DNA from: Malaciobacter marinus
Lineage (GTDB): Bacteria > Campylobacterota > Campylobacteria > Campylobacterales > Arcobacteraceae
Assembly: GCF_003544855.1 (NCBI RefSeq)
Contig: NZ_CP032101.1
Span: forward strand, 2,170,001-2,234,000
DNA: 64,000 bases
Reading direction: 5' to 3'
A program made the translations under genes and the position numbers. The notes below the pieces were generated by a model that saw only the letters and a list, made by a program, of their open reading frames with translations, searched no databases and was not told the DNA's origin. Below are positions 46,561 through 52,425 of the stretch, piece by piece; positions within the stretch are counted from its first letter, which is position 1, and every line of letters begins with the position of its first letter.

Positions 46561-46956
46561 GGGGATGATATGGCTTCGATTAGAGCATTGAGGCTTGATT
46601 GCATGTCGGCCTGAGCATGCCGTTACGCGGCTCATTTTTTTTAGACGCAAACAATACAAATTACGCTCCAGCTTACGCAAAAGCTGCGTAAGTTTAACAA
46701 CTTATAGACTCCCTTCGGGTTGAGTCTTTGGAGACTCGCACTACTGATTCTATCTAAGTAGGTTATCGCGGGTTCACCCTAGATAGATTACTTTTAAAGG
46801 ATTGATTTGACTTTAAAAGGACACTTTAAAATCTTAGCTTTTTAGTTGCCTTGCAGGTTGAGCTGCTAGAAAGTGAAATTTTTCAACCTCACTAAGCATG
46901 TAGACGTCAAGAGTAAATGTTTTAAGACTCCGGTTCGATCCCGGACATCTCCACCA
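46561..46956 (+). ncRNA. ssrA: Transfer-messenger RNA
   Basis: A 396-base RNA that rescues stalled ribosomes. The 5' GGGGATGATATGGCTTCGA pairs with the 3' CATCTCC-ACCA to form the acceptor stem, and GGTTCGATCCC is the T-loop. The tag frame runs from GCA at 46,647 to TAA at 46,691 and reads ANNTNYAPAYAKAA, very like the Campylobacter jejuni tag. CCA is encoded. The 3' end served as an insertion site for a now decayed element (see the repeats at 46,946 and 47,924). Confidence 0.97.
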
Positions 46957-46980
46957 ATATTAATAGTTATGCTTTCTAAA
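46946..46980 (+). repeat. att-like repeat at the tmRNA 3' end
   Basis: This 35-base segment includes the last bases of ssrA and runs into the intergenic region. It matches 47,924-47,958 with four differences. The shared core is CCAATATTAATA and TTATGCTTT. Elements with P4-type integrases commonly enter the 3' end of tmRNA genes and duplicate it. Confidence 0.75.
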
Positions 46981-47025
46981 GTTTATTACGGTAATTGCAA
47001 AAGTTCAAAAATAAATACCGTATAA

Positions 47026-47355
47026 ATGTCAAAAATTATAAAATCCCTAACAAATAAAGATATTAAAACTGCTAAACCTAAAGAAAAGTTATGAACTTTG
47101 GAGTTTACCCATATATTGGAAATGAATTTTGAAAAAAAGTTATAGATATATCAGGTAAAAAAATGAAAACTAAAAAAGATTTTATTTTGTCTTTATCAAA
47201 ACTAGCAATTGAAATATTAAAAAAGAAACTTGGATATCAAAATAAACATAACTCATGAATTTAAAATTATATTCTCAACAATAACACATGAGAAAAAAGA
47301 ATTAATGCAATGGTAGGCTGATTGCCTGGATAAAATTAAACTAGTTAAATTTTAG
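47026..47355 (+). pseudogene. Decayed P4-type integrase
   Basis: Conserved pieces of a P4-family tyrosine recombinase occur in the right order but broken by stops, shifts and deletions. They are MSKIIKSLTNKDIKTAKPKEK (47,026-47,088; the usual N-terminus, broken here as MSKIIKSLTN then KDIKTAKPKEK), FGVYPYIG at about 47,096, a KKDFILSLSKLAIEILKK stretch at about 47,170, and ELMQW-stop-ADCLDKIKL at about 47,303 (the usual C-terminus). The catalytic R-H-R-H-Y centre is deleted, so it is inactive. It lies where an integrase should be, next to the tmRNA att site. Confidence 0.8.
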
Positions 47356-47514
47356 AAATAATTACTATTTTATTTTATTTAAAAAAGAAGTTAAAAAATT
47401 TATATTATATTTTAATAAAAATATTTAGAATAGAGCTTTTTTATGGTAAATTAACCCTAGTAAAAGGTTTAAAATACTAATTAAAAATAACATGAATAAT
47501 ATACGATTTTTTAT

Positions 47515-47885
47515 ATGAAAAAGTTACGAATGTACACAACTTCAACTATACCACAATCAGAACATTTTCCTTTAAAACAAGAGATACTTAATAAAGCAGA
47601 ACAAATTATAATTGAAAGTGCTAAGTTAACAGGAAATTTAAATATTCATATAATTAATGCAATAAAAGAAAACTTACGGACTATAAACTCTTACTACTCA
47701 AATAAAATTGAATCAGAAGGAACTCACCCAATTGATATTGAACGTGCAATGAAAAATCAATTTTTACAAGATGATAAAAAAAAAGTATACAACAATTATC
47801 ATTGGTACATATTGAGGTACAAAAATATTTAGAAACAACAATAGTGATTGGTGGGTGTGGTTTGTATCAATTTATAATAATTTAA
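47515..47885 (+). pseudogene. Fragment of a Fic-family protein
   Basis: The first 90 codons match the N-terminal part of Fic proteins: YTTSTIPQSEHFPL, then TINSYYSNKIESEGTHPIDIERA. Near 47,800 the frame shifts; the expected continuation LVHIEVQKYLET appears in another frame from 47,802 and stops at 47,885. The Fic core with HPFxxGNGR, which transfers AMP, is missing, so the gene is dead. It is cargo left from the tmRNA-integrated element. Confidence 0.78.
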
Positions 47886-47923
47886 TTTTTGTTTTTTAAA
47901 ATCATCAATATTTCCTTACTCTT

Positions 47924-47958
47924 CATCTGCCCCAATATTAATAATTATGCTTTTTAAA
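47924..47958 (+). repeat. Second att-like repeat, end of tmRNA island remnant
   Basis: Direct repeat of 46,946-46,980 at a distance of 978 bases, with four mismatches in 35. It marks the far end of the remnant element. The drift between copies fits an old insertion. Confidence 0.72.
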
Positions 47959-48131
47959 ATTATTCAAGCTTCAACAACCTTATTAAATAATTTCAAAATT
48001 TACTTTTTAATCATCTAAAATAACTATATAGTGTTATTTTAAAAATTATTAAATTTTTTTTTGATTAAAATAATTTTTTTATAATTGTTTTGCTATTATT
48101 TAGTTTAATTAAAAATAAGGCTACAATTTAA
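47959..48131. other. AT-rich gap before the CHASE2 gene
   Basis: No gene is seen between the att-like repeat and 48,132. Weak TATAAT-like boxes are present (TTTTTTTATAATTG near 48,076) and the ribosome site AATAAGG lies before the start. This stretch probably carries the promoter of the CHASE2-M48 operon. Confidence 0.35.
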
Positions 48132-49358
48132 ATGAATTATTTTAAAATAGTTAAAAATTCTATTTTCTCATTTCTTTTTGTAAGTGGTATCGTATTTTTA
48201 TTAGACAATAAATTAAATTTATTAGAGATAATTCACTCTGCGACACTAAGAAACATTTATAATTCAATTGATAAAGAGACTAAAAATAAAGTTTATAACA
48301 ATAATTCTGATTCTCTTGCATTATTAATTACAAATGAGTTTTATGAAAAAGAGTTTAATTCAACTTCCCCTTTAAATAAAGAAAAACTATACAATTTAAT
48401 AAAAAATATTACAAAACAAAAACCTAAAACAATTATTATTGACTTTAGTATTTCTCCAAATAGTTTACAACAAACAAAAAATGAAATTAAATTATATGAA
48501 TATTTAAAAGAAATTTCAAAAGATATTAATATAGTTTTACCTTTTGCATTTTTTTCAAACTTAAATCTAAAAAATCAAGAAAAATGGATTAAAGATATTT
48601 GTAAAAGCAATATCAAACTAGCAATTCCTTTTATTACTTCTGAAATAGGACTTGTTTTAAAATACAATAATTTTCAAAACCATATTTCACGTGTTGCATA
48701 TACACAAAATAGTAGTATATGTAAATCTTTAAAAACAAAATCAATTAGTGAAGTTTTAACTAATAATAAAAAGCTTTTTACAAATCAAAAAGAGATACCT
48801 GTAAACTATTCTAAAATAACACATAGCACTATTTACTTAAATAGTATGTCTGAAATAAAAAGATATGACTTATCTAATAAAACAGTATTCTTAGGTGGAG
48901 GATATGGGTTTACAGATATATATAAAACACCATATAGTGAAAGATTTGGTGTAGAGATTTTAAATGCCATTTATTACTCAATAACTCATCCTATTGAATA
49001 TGCAAACCTTTTAAATACAAGTATAATTGATATACTAAATGGTTTATTATTTGGTTTTTTTATATCTTTTATTTTAAGAAAAAAATCTATTGCAAAAACT
49101 CAAAATATGAATACTATTTATAACCTATCATTAATTATCATACTCTTTTTATTTATAATTATCTCTTTATCTATTTCAAGTATTTTTTTCCATAAATTTT
49201 TTGTATGGATTAATCCTGTACCAATTATTCTTGGTATGTTTATAGATTTAGTAATAAATTCTGAGAAAAAAGATTTTAATGATAGTTTTAAAACAGCTTG
49301 GTTTGCTTATTTTCTTAGAAGTTGTTTTATTATTTTAGGATTATATTCATTTTTTTAA
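48132..49358 (+). CDS. CHASE2-domain membrane protein
   Basis: A 408-residue protein. One N-terminal membrane helix (12-25) is followed by an extracytoplasmic CHASE2 sensor (about 30-295) and three membrane helices (about 300-395). The CHASE2 pattern is clear: KTIIIDFSISPNS and the end motif FTDIYKTPYSERFGVEILNAIYYSI. CHASE2 is normally joined to a cyclase, kinase or GGDEF domain; here no output domain follows, so a partner must read it. It is first in a three-gene group with a periplasmic protein and an M48 protease. Confidence 0.8.
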   Translation: MNYFKIVKNSIFSFLFVSGIVFLLDNKLNLLEIIHSATLRNIYNSIDKETKNKVYNNNSDSLALLITNEFYEKEFNSTSPLNKEKLYNLIKNITKQKPKTIIIDFSISPNSLQQTKNEIKLYEYLKEISKDINIVLPFAFFSNLNLKNQEKWIKDICKSNIKLAIPFITSEIGLVLKYNNFQNHISRVAYTQNSSICKSLKTKSISEVLTNNKKLFTNQKEIPVNYSKITHSTIYLNSMSEIKRYDLSNKTVFLGGGYGFTDIYKTPYSERFGVEILNAIYYSITHPIEYANLLNTSIIDILNGLLFGFFISFILRKKSIAKTQNMNTIYNLSLIIILFLFIIISLSISSIFFHKFFVWINPVPIILGMFIDLVINSEKKDFNDSFKTAWFAYFLRSCFIILGLYSFF

Positions 49359-49382
49359 ATGAAATTTTATAAAAGGATTTAA

Positions 49383-50093
49383 ATGAAATATATATTAGCA
49401 TTGTTACTTATTAGTTTGAATATAAATGCAACAGTAATGCTTTTGGGTAATTCAAATAACAAAGTTATTTGTGATGGTGAAGAGATATCAGCATTTGAAA
49501 TAAAAGAGTGTAAAAAGATAAAAGCTTTAACAAAAATAAATATTTGCTATTTTATTGACACAAACTTAGACTGCAAAAAACTTTTTAAAAATGATATCTT
49601 TGATACAAAAAAGATAAAAGATGAACCAATAGAGTTTTCACGTCTTTTATCTTTTAACACATCAAAACAGGTAAGTTTTGGAATTAAAAGATTTTCAAAT
49701 TCAAAAGAAACAAACAATACTATTCCAAAAGGTTTTATTCTTAAACCACATCAAAACATAAAAATAGATTTTAATGACAATATAAACTCTACAATTAAAA
49801 TACTAGAAAATGGAAAAAGAATATATTCTAAAAAATTAAAATCAAAATCTCTAATATTAAAACATTCACTTTTTAAATATAACAATAAATATACAATATT
49901 GATAAATAATGAATCATTTGACTTTAGTACATTAAGTAAAAAAGAGCAAAATATAATATTTCAAGAGATTAAAAAACTAACATCAAAAATGAATAACTCA
50001 AATTCAAAACTTTATATAAAAAGTATAATATATGACCAATATGGTTTACTTTACGATAGAAATAATTTATTAAAAGGAATACAAAATGATTAA
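49383..50093 (+). CDS. Periplasmic protein of unknown function
   Basis: A 236-residue protein with a signal peptide (MKYILALLLISLNINAT). It contains three cysteines in the first 70 residues (ICDGEE, ECKK, CYF/DCKK) that could form disulfides, and a beta-rich middle (FILKPHQNIKIDFNDNINSTIKILENGKRIY). Genes of this position next to CHASE2 are often FecR-like, but I see no clear FecR motif. Its end overlaps the M48 gene by 8 bases. Confidence 0.6.
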   Translation: MKYILALLLISLNINATVMLLGNSNNKVICDGEEISAFEIKECKKIKALTKINICYFIDTNLDCKKLFKNDIFDTKKIKDEPIEFSRLLSFNTSKQVSFGIKRFSNSKETNNTIPKGFILKPHQNIKIDFNDNINSTIKILENGKRIYSKKLKSKSLILKHSLFKYNNKYTILINNESFDFSTLSKKEQNIIFQEIKKLTSKMNNSNSKLYIKSIIYDQYGLLYDRNNLLKGIQND

Positions 50094-51105
50094 AAAACTT
50101 GGCTTTACTATTTTATTAGCAAATTCATTATTTGCTTTTGATTTTGCAGATATTACATCTGCTGTGACAGACGTAGCACAAAAAAGCATTAAAGCATTGG
50201 CAGAACCTGGGCAAACAACTAATGTAGATAAACAATGTAAAATAATGTTTGAATCGTATGAAGTAAATTATAAATCAGCTATATCTATAGCTACTTCACA
50301 TACAATTTCAAATAGTAGTACAATTTCTTCTTATTTAAGTAAAGACTCTGATTTTTCAAAAGATGAACTTCAACAAAATATAAAAGAACTTACAAAAGAT
50401 CTAGCAAAAAATTCATTTTGGATTCCAATAGAAGTTGAAAAGTTCTATGGTCAATTGGCTTTTAATGAAAGAAGAAAAAGTGCAGAAATTATTGAAGAAA
50501 CAAATAGAAATATTAGATACAAAAGATTATTTAAAAAAGTAAATTCTTTTTTAAATCAATATAAAAAAAGCAATAAAGACATGAATTTTCCTTTTGATTT
50601 AAAAGTAGCAATTACAACTGAAAAAAATGTTGCTGAAGCCTTGCCTTTTGGTCATCTAATTATTAGTCAAAATTTAATTGAAAGCAATAATTATAAAACA
50701 ATTTTAGCTCATGAGTTATCACATATATCTAAAAGACATGCAGCAAAAGAGTTACAATATAAATTAATTAAATCATATTCATCAATTGAAGATATAGTAA
50801 AGTTTATAAAAAATATAAATGACGAAGATTATGTACAAAATGCAGATTTATCAAATGCCATGCTTTTAGTAAGAGGCTTCTTTAATTACTATTCAAATGA
50901 ACAAGAACTTGAAGCAGATGCATGCGGATTAAAAACAATGGTAAAAATAAATAAAAATAACAAAAGAAAATATGCAAATGAATTAATTCAAAATATCAAT
51001 AAACTATCTGTAAAAACTACAAAAATTGATGATATTTTAGGAGATTCACATCCTTCTAAAGAAATAAGAGTAAAAAATATCAAAGAACTAGAAAGAACTT
51101 TATAA
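50086..51105 (+). CDS. M48-family periplasmic metalloprotease
   Basis: A 339-residue zinc protease with a signal peptide (MIKKLGFTILLANSLFAF). The zinc motif is HELSH in ILAHELSHISKRHA (about 207), and the third ligand is in EQELEADACGLKTM (about 270). The C-terminal GDSHPSKEIRVKNI is also typical of M48 (SxHPS). It resembles BepA/LoiP-type quality-control proteases of the envelope. It is coupled to the periplasmic protein upstream, and a hairpin follows at 51,111. Confidence 0.88.
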   Translation: MIKKLGFTILLANSLFAFDFADITSAVTDVAQKSIKALAEPGQTTNVDKQCKIMFESYEVNYKSAISIATSHTISNSSTISSYLSKDSDFSKDELQQNIKELTKDLAKNSFWIPIEVEKFYGQLAFNERRKSAEIIEETNRNIRYKRLFKKVNSFLNQYKKSNKDMNFPFDLKVAITTEKNVAEALPFGHLIISQNLIESNNYKTILAHELSHISKRHAAKELQYKLIKSYSSIEDIVKFIKNINDEDYVQNADLSNAMLLVRGFFNYYSNEQELEADACGLKTMVKINKNNKRKYANELIQNINKLSVKTTKIDDILGDSHPSKEIRVKNIKELERTL

Positions 51106-51110
51106 TATTT

Positions 51111-51160
51111 CATTCCATTGTCAATCTTGATATTATTTTATCAGATTGACATGGAATTTT
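51111..51160. terminator. Shared terminator between the M48 and HemN-like genes
   Basis: The stem TTCCATTGTCAATCTTGATA / TATCAGATTGACATGGAA (with small mismatches) is flanked by T and A runs, between two converging genes. Confidence 0.8.
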
Positions 51161-51171
51161 TAGCATTTACT

Positions 51172-52425
51172 TTATCTTCTAAACATAGATCTTACTTTAT
51201 CCATGCCACTATAAAAACTTGCCATCATTATCACAAGTAAATACTCACCAAACTGTGTTGGATATATTATGCCCTCTTCTATTCTTATTACATCTAATTT
51301 TTTTACTAAATATAACTCTTTTCTAAGTAGTTTTTCCAAATCTACATTATAAAGTTTATTAAACTCTTTTATATTTAATTTTCCACCAAAAAGTGTGCTT
51401 AGCATTGCATACTCAATTTTATTTATATTTTCAAATTCACTTTTTGCCATAAGAGCATCTTTTCTTGTAATAATATTTTCTTCATACTCTTTTAAATCAA
51501 AGGCATTTATAAAAAGTTTTCCATCAAGATAACTAAATGCTCCACTTCCCACACCAATATATTCATCATGTGTTGATACATATTCATCACTTAAATCTAC
51601 TAGATTTTTAGAAAATGACCACATATTATTTTTAGTATAATCTTTTAGTTCTTCTTTTATTATATTGTAAAATTTTTGTTCATTTGTATTTATTTTTTTA
51701 CTTTTTAAAAAACCTGAATTTAAATCTGAACTCATTAAAGGATATGTTGTTATTTGCTCTATACCTAAATCTTTTGCACTTTGTAAATCATCTCTTAAAA
51801 TATCTTGGGTTTGACTTGGAATATTAAATATCAAATCAATATTTGTTATAGGTAAAATCCCAGCAATTTTAGATATTTTCTCTTTAATTTCAGAACTACT
51901 TCCAAATCTTTTATATCTACTTAATTGTTTTAATATCTCATCATCAAAACTTTGAACTCCAATAGATAATCTTTTTATTAGACCTTTTAATTTATATACT
52001 GTGTTTACATCTATATGATTTGGATCAGTCTCACATGATATATCCTCTACATCAAATAATTTTTTTACAAGTTTTATAGTTATTCTTAATTGTTTTTCAT
52101 TTATAAGAGGTGTTCCTCCACCTACATACACTGAATCAACTTTTACATTTTTTCTTTTTAAAACTTTTAGCTCTTCTCTTAAAATTTTAAAGTATCTATT
52201 AGAGTCTTCAAAGTTATGTTTAAACTTATGAAAAGTACAAAAAGGACATAAATTATCACAAAAGGGTACGTGAATATATAGTAAATATTTTTTTTGGCTG
52301 TCAATACTTGAATATTTTGATTCATTTTTTAAAGTTGATGTTATATTAATGCAAGATGCAAAAGTATTTTTCACTACTGCTTTAGCAGTGAAGATAGAAA
52401 AAATCTCTTTTATATTATTTACCAT
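51172..52425 (-). CDS. HemN/HemW-like radical SAM protein
   Basis: A 417-residue radical SAM enzyme. The cluster motif is CDNLCPFC (CxxxCxxC) after YIHVPF, with VYVGGGTPL and SIGVQSFDDEILKQLSR as in the coproporphyrinogen oxidase-like group. The N-terminal 45 residues are extra compared with HemW. The family includes oxygen-independent coproporphyrinogen oxidase, the haem chaperone HemW and haem-degrading HutW/ChuW; which one applies is not clear. No haem-uptake genes are nearby. Confidence 0.78.
   Translation of the reverse strand: MVNNIKEIFSIFTAKAVVKNTFASCINITSTLKNESKYSSIDSQKKYLLYIHVPFCDNLCPFCTFHKFKHNFEDSNRYFKILREELKVLKRKNVKVDSVYVGGGTPLINEKQLRITIKLVKKLFDVEDISCETDPNHIDVNTVYKLKGLIKRLSIGVQSFDDEILKQLSRYKRFGSSSEIKEKISKIAGILPITNIDLIFNIPSQTQDILRDDLQSAKDLGIEQITTYPLMSSDLNSGFLKSKKINTNEQKFYNIIKEELKDYTKNNMWSFSKNLVDLSDEYVSTHDEYIGVGSGAFSYLDGKLFINAFDLKEYEENIITRKDALMAKSEFENINKIEYAMLSTLFGGKLNIKEFNKLYNVDLEKLLRKELYLVKKLDVIRIEEGIIYPTQFGEYLLVIMMASFYSGMDKVRSMFRR

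Follow-up and report, generated by a model that had tools for sequence, protein, structure and literature searches.

Islands that integrate at the 3' end of the tmRNA gene (ssrA) are known from Dehalococcoides, for which sections of one study (PMC3146451) describe direct repeats downstream, islands arranged in tandem, and some islands that contain no integration genes. The P4/CP4-type prophage integrases (PDB 3jtz and others) form a second point of reference: the intact integrase of genome G004, a relative of the one treated here, has the P4-type set of Pfam domains, in the order Arm-DNA-bind_3, Phage_int_M (middle domain) and Phage_integrase, and its arm domain matches PDB entries 3ju0 and 3jtz, the latter named as a CP4-like integrase. 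Full-text literature searches, in part naming Arcobacter, did not turn up any account of tmRNA islands for this group, which is no proof that none is in print.

The DNA analyzed here, referred to as the window, is a 64,000-nucleotide stretch (positions 2170001-2234000) of a single-contig 2.92-Mb genome. It contains an intact tmRNA gene at 46561-46956 on the forward strand, identified by ARAGORN and by Rfam (RF00023, 142.5 bits), whose tag sequence is ANNTNYAPAYAKAA according to ARAGORN. The integration target is the 3' end of this gene, which adjoins the remains described below and serves as the attachment core of the element. As in the islands of its relatives, the family's integrase sits just inside the left end, and in the window it is present as ordered fragments only.

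A repeated tmRNA end and the remains between its copies

The original prediction stated that the tmRNA 3' end is repeated 978 bases downstream over 35 bases with four mismatches. Aligning the sequence with itself at this shift bears the statement out (46946-46980 and 47924-47958 are identical at 31 of 35 positions) and extends the repeat to 38 bp, as 46946-46983 and 47924-47961 agree at 33 of 38 positions, with five mismatches. Both copies lie on the forward strand. Copy 1 is an attL, formed by the tmRNA 3' end (core ending in CATCTCCACCA) and the left-arm tail of the element, and copy 2 consists of a decayed core and a left-arm tail, making it a relic of the left-end type and no typical attR. 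The repeat does not recur at unrelated places: a pattern that fits both copies with at most 3 mismatches matched these two positions only in the 2.9-Mb genome, and a reversed-pattern control gave no match there.

AT-rich parts of this DNA do give many spurious matches. When 47845-48131 was compared with 104 family genomes, no convincing homologue was obtained, only scattered AT-rich matches, and 84 of the 104 genomes matched at E<=0.001, so that such E-values mean little here, copy 2's 7.6e-6 included. Nevertheless, it is extremely improbable that the repeat itself is a product of chance in AT-rich sequence, because just two places in the genome fit the pattern and because 100 dinucleotide-preserving shuffles of copy 1, searched against 575 kb of window and relatives' DNA on both strands (1.15 Mb), reached a maximum of 28/38, as compared to 33/38 for the real repeat. 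In the same 575 kb (both strands), copy 1 was matched at 31/38 or better at eight places, itself included, and copy 2 at 29/38 or better at eight places; copy 1, copy 2 and six tmRNA ends would together account for eight, the test having given counts and not positions.

Behind copy 1, the rest of the left arm (46979-47026, forward strand) is recognizable from alignments to G105 and G004, and the junction map against G105 shows that about 95 bp of it are missing. It is followed at 47027-47346, on the same strand, by a shattered P4-type integrase, which was delineated by blastn and by a junction map against the intact genes of G004 and G105. Ordered scraps of such an integrase had been predicted, and the pieces indeed align in order to a single intact integrase: blastn against the G004 tmRNA site returns, in this order, the tmRNA end with the left arm, the N-terminal region, a small middle piece and three later pieces, all on the same strand, with the integrase pieces 84-93% identical in DNA to the G004 gene and 83-91% to that of G105. 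The order obtained with G105, which belongs to another genus, is the same as with G004, which belongs to the genus of the window, and comparison with the intact integrases of relatives places the scraps in the same integrase family. Relative to G105, the gene has suffered five large losses of about 100, 216, 368, 99 and 117 bp and several small defects, leaving about 26% of it in order (323 of 1227 bases, a hand sum of the junction-map blocks). The peptide FGVYPYIG, listed in the original prediction among these scraps, is present but is not a natural motif; it is a deletion joint, where FGVYP has been brought together with a YPYIG that originally lay about 70 codons downstream. Deletion by microhomology is not claimed, as the exact repeats at the junctions measure 0-7 bp and the reference is diverged. 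No excision or circular forms are expected in cis, because the integrase is broken.

Two further features of these remains are shared with other genomes. A TAG stop occupies the same codon near the C-terminus (QW-stop) in the window (47293-47367) and in the integrase remains of G107 (L061), which is from a different genus; the open relatives shown have a second tryptophan at this codon, and the common stop was either inherited by both from one shortened variant or acquired in parallel. In addition, the left arm of the window has one arm half-site (ACGGTAA at 46988), and the same holds for G106 and for G107, so that three of the four wrecks share this state. Each of the six relatives whose integrase is open has two, and decay may have removed an arm site at an early stage.

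At 47515-47844 on the forward strand lies the first part of a Fic gene, which is frameshifted and truncated and is defined by homology with G105 and G106. The predicted frameshifted Fic gene is thus confirmed as a homologue of the intact genes of these two genomes, each of which is open and encodes 396 amino acids. Homology with G105 is contiguous from the end of the integrase into its intact fic gene (86% over 559 bp of DNA), and the fic gene of G106 is 87% identical over 501 bp. The fragment is cut off after about a quarter of the gene, the homology ending at 47844, which leaves 79 bp (47845-47923) before copy 2. By itself the fragment matches no Pfam family; for the G106 protein, Pfam gives a Fic match at 1.9e-14. 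In G105 the fic gene comes after the integrase. The G106 locus (L058:1590-3123) lacks the integrase, and its open Fic gene follows the left arm directly; this locus has kept cargo and lost mobility.

The same site in related genomes

The original prediction had proposed looking at this locus in related strains, and inspection of 104 family genomes reveals islands with intact integrases at the tmRNA gene, together with tail-free sites and other wrecks. A 28-bp tail pattern (at most 3 mismatches) is found in seven of these genomes, once each and always at the tmRNA 3' end; the carriers are the window's genome, G001, G004, G022, G105, G106 and G107. A pattern scan of genome contigs returned the Campylobacteraceae MAG HF-Din13 as a carrier of the left-arm tail. 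A tail-like match in G112 was discarded, as it lies inside an unrelated gene. Three IMG/VR contigs that fit a loose tail pattern were treated as chance matches; ARAGORN detected no tmRNA in the stretches examined, and blastn found neither left arm nor right end on the IMG/VR contigs, one of which gave two weak reverse-strand matches to the integrase query.

Integrases that match the G004 protein at E<=1e-60 occur in 45 of the 104 genomes, and 20 of these 45 loci were scanned for RNA genes. The six best integrases (G004, G105, G022, G080, G065 and G072) all adjoin a tmRNA gene, the next two adjoin a tRNA-Leu gene, and the other twelve scanned loci showed no RNA gene. Identity to the G004 integrase is 95-87% within the G004/G105/G022 group and 76-74% for G065, G072 and G080. 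Judging from coordinates, the integrases of G016, G018, G027 and G035 (43-46% identical to that of G004, and outside the 20 scanned loci) also start 170-205 bp after a tmRNA gene, which extends the association of this integrase branch with tmRNA beyond the close group. That the locus in the window is the fossil of a tmRNA-integrated element, as originally predicted, is supported by the single ordered integrase found in it and by the location of all six closest integrases in the 104 genomes at tmRNA.

Ten genomes have a close left arm or a close integrase. The integrase is open in six of them and broken in two (the window and G107), and the remaining two have the left arm only, G001 and G106 having kept it with at most a few integrase codons. 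The G105 integrase reads 408 amino acids from its own start, with one stop lying before that start. G106 and G107 belong to one genus and may share one event. Of the six genomes that make up the window's genus here, three (G002, G003 and G005) have no such tail, and in G003 the tmRNA is directly followed by the HemW-like gene that stands at 51172-52425 in the window. The left-arm-only site of G001, from the same genus, shows that relic tails do persist behind tmRNA.

The ends of intact islands and the identity of copy 2

The right end was found in three of the six islands with an intact integrase (G004, G105 and G065), at distances of approximately 19, 27 and 32 kb, respectively, and the description of attR given here is based on these three. 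Each right end is built in the same order: paired arm sites (TTACGGTA...ACGGTA), about 82 bp, the core, and then unrelated DNA. The core reads GGACATCTCCACCA, or GCACATCTCCACCA in G065, and in each case resembles the end of that genome's own tmRNA. At the left end, the same paired sites recur ahead of the integrase, about 120 bp into the element. Paired sites inside both ends are as expected for the arm sites of a tyrosine integrase. For the other islands, no core with 3 or fewer substitutions was found at 15-24 kb in G022, nor any exact CTCCACCA between 2.0 and 41 kb; no further exact core was found within 39.8 kb in G072, and no right end within 10.2 kb in G080.

Copy 2 does not have the order of arm sites, core and host DNA that characterizes these right ends. 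No arm sites precede it, the right-end sequence common to G004 and G105 is absent, and the likeness of the preceding DNA to a right arm is weak (39 of 500 shuffles as good for G105 and 98 of 500 for G004). The bases that follow its core instead resemble a left arm, as they match that of G004 at 22 of 27 positions, with 0 of 1000 shuffles as good. At the left end, the bases after the core are element DNA, because their divergence in G065, G072 and G080 goes hand in hand with that of the integrase. The flanks of the three attR sites and six tail-free sites score 5-12/27 against the tail. The likeness of copy 2 to the more distant G065 tail does not exceed the chance level (183 of 1000 shuffles as good), and the G065 attR flank is weakly similar to its own left tail (69 of 1000). 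Judged by its sequence, then, copy 2 is best described as a left-end relic and not as the attR of the element whose scraps lie before it, and the original view that both att copies have stayed is not supported in the form in which it was put. A plain attR was dropped as the first choice for copy 2, in which the left tail is present and the right arm is missing. Since the locus has no attR-type right end, we class it as the wreck of a tmRNA-integrated element and not as a complete one.

History of the locus and comparison with known systems

We consider it probable that the locus is the wreck of a tmRNA-integrated element with a P4-type integrase and a Fic gene, and that copy 2 is a left-end relic, most likely of another integration. 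An element carrying a P4-type tyrosine integrase with a Fic gene behind it, as in G105, would have inserted into the tmRNA 3' end and restored that end with its own copy, a mode of integration that we infer from the intact relatives, with which homology is demonstrable. Comparison with these relatives shows that a series of deletions has destroyed the integrase and that a larger loss has removed the rest of fic and whatever followed it. With the integrase destroyed and the rest of fic and the DNA beyond it lost, the element would no longer be able to excise itself. Copy 2 would most likely mark another integration at the same site, either because a newer element entered a site at which the left arm of an older related element was already present behind tmRNA, a situation found today in G001, or because a tandem copy was formed. 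The site does hold more than one left end, namely copy 1 and the left-end-like copy 2. A tandem junction would lead from a right arm through the core into the next left arm; no right-arm sequence was found before copy 2, which counts against such a junction unless this sequence has been deleted. Nothing else of a second element is recognizable, and the left-arm homology of copy 2 does not continue past 38 bp; both observations count against two integrations.

Two histories involving one integration were weighed against this reading. The simplest would be a single integration in which copy 2 is a decayed attR, with a former host flank behind its core or a shared core that is unusually long and takes in these bases, and the repeat does span the element in the manner of an att pair. 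This less likely reading, which we regard as improbable, is at odds with the lack of resemblance between the tail and the host flanks of the three islands and six tail-free sites, with the nature of the tail as element DNA that diverges with the integrase, and with the missing right arm and arm sites. Alternatively, copy 2 could be a local duplication of copy 1, generated during or after decay by, for example, strand slippage or template switching, without a second integration. The two copies agree better with one another (33/38) than copy 2 does with the other left arms (29-31/38); they have in common one base that is absent from the six other close left arms, so a local duplication would fit this base too; and homology ends after 38 bp, no left-arm homology being found beyond them (199-373 of 500 shuffles as good for six arms). 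However, a duplication running from the last bases of tmRNA to a point within the tail, and landing 978 bp away, requires a coincidence in its borders, and accretion at the tmRNA site is common elsewhere, according to sections of the Dehalococcoides study (PMC3146451). A local duplication is possible, but we judge it quite improbable.

Three intact genes lie on the forward strand between copy 2 and a HemW-like gene (51172-52425). Located at 48132-51105 and annotated by Pfam, they encode a CHASE2 protein (408 amino acids), a 236-residue protein with no Pfam match and an M48 peptidase (339 amino acids). None of the five other genomes of the genus has the trio at its tmRNA site. A CHASE2 relative at E<=1e-20 is found in two of the 104 family genomes, the window's own and G002, and in G002 the trio is present in the same order at another place. 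These genes may be local, or they may be old cargo, in which case less cargo would have been lost than originally proposed. More tentatively, the fossil may have two layers; copy 2 would then belong, as its left end, to an older or tandem member of the family, and the trio would be the surviving cargo of that element, kept by the host while the integrase was lost; we find this conceivable but doubtful, and it would mean that the site was struck at least twice. A long inverted repeat at 51110-51155, between the convergent M48 and HemW-like genes, is probably a two-way terminator.

Because intact relatives occupy the same gene, the decay of this element can be read piece by piece. This integrase family is useful in that it occupies a single site and is found there, within one bacterial family, as an island with an open integrase, as a shattered integrase and as a left arm only, alongside sites free of the tail; this series opens the order in which an island loses mobility to study from DNA. 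Copy 2, being left-end-like, also carries a practical warning: finding a tRNA or tmRNA end repeated in direct orientation is not enough to place the right border of an island, and it is the sequence behind the core that shows which island end a repeat represents.

The nearest counterparts of the locus are the islands of G004, G105, G022, G065, G072 and G080, which share with it the target at the tmRNA 3' end, the left arm and the integrase family; the G105 island also has the same fic gene directly behind the integrase. They differ in that their integrase frames are open, whereas the window retains fragments only. The best phage and plasmid integrase relatives among the matches listed are 34-37% identical, and the copy in the window is dead. 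The Dehalococcoides islands, as sections of their description present them (PMC3146451), depend on the serine recombinase DsiB and are numerous, many of them being large, whereas the present locus is one wreck with a tyrosine integrase. Integration at the tmRNA end, tandem islands and islands that lack integration genes are already known, and the present family adds to them a case based on a tyrosine integrase.
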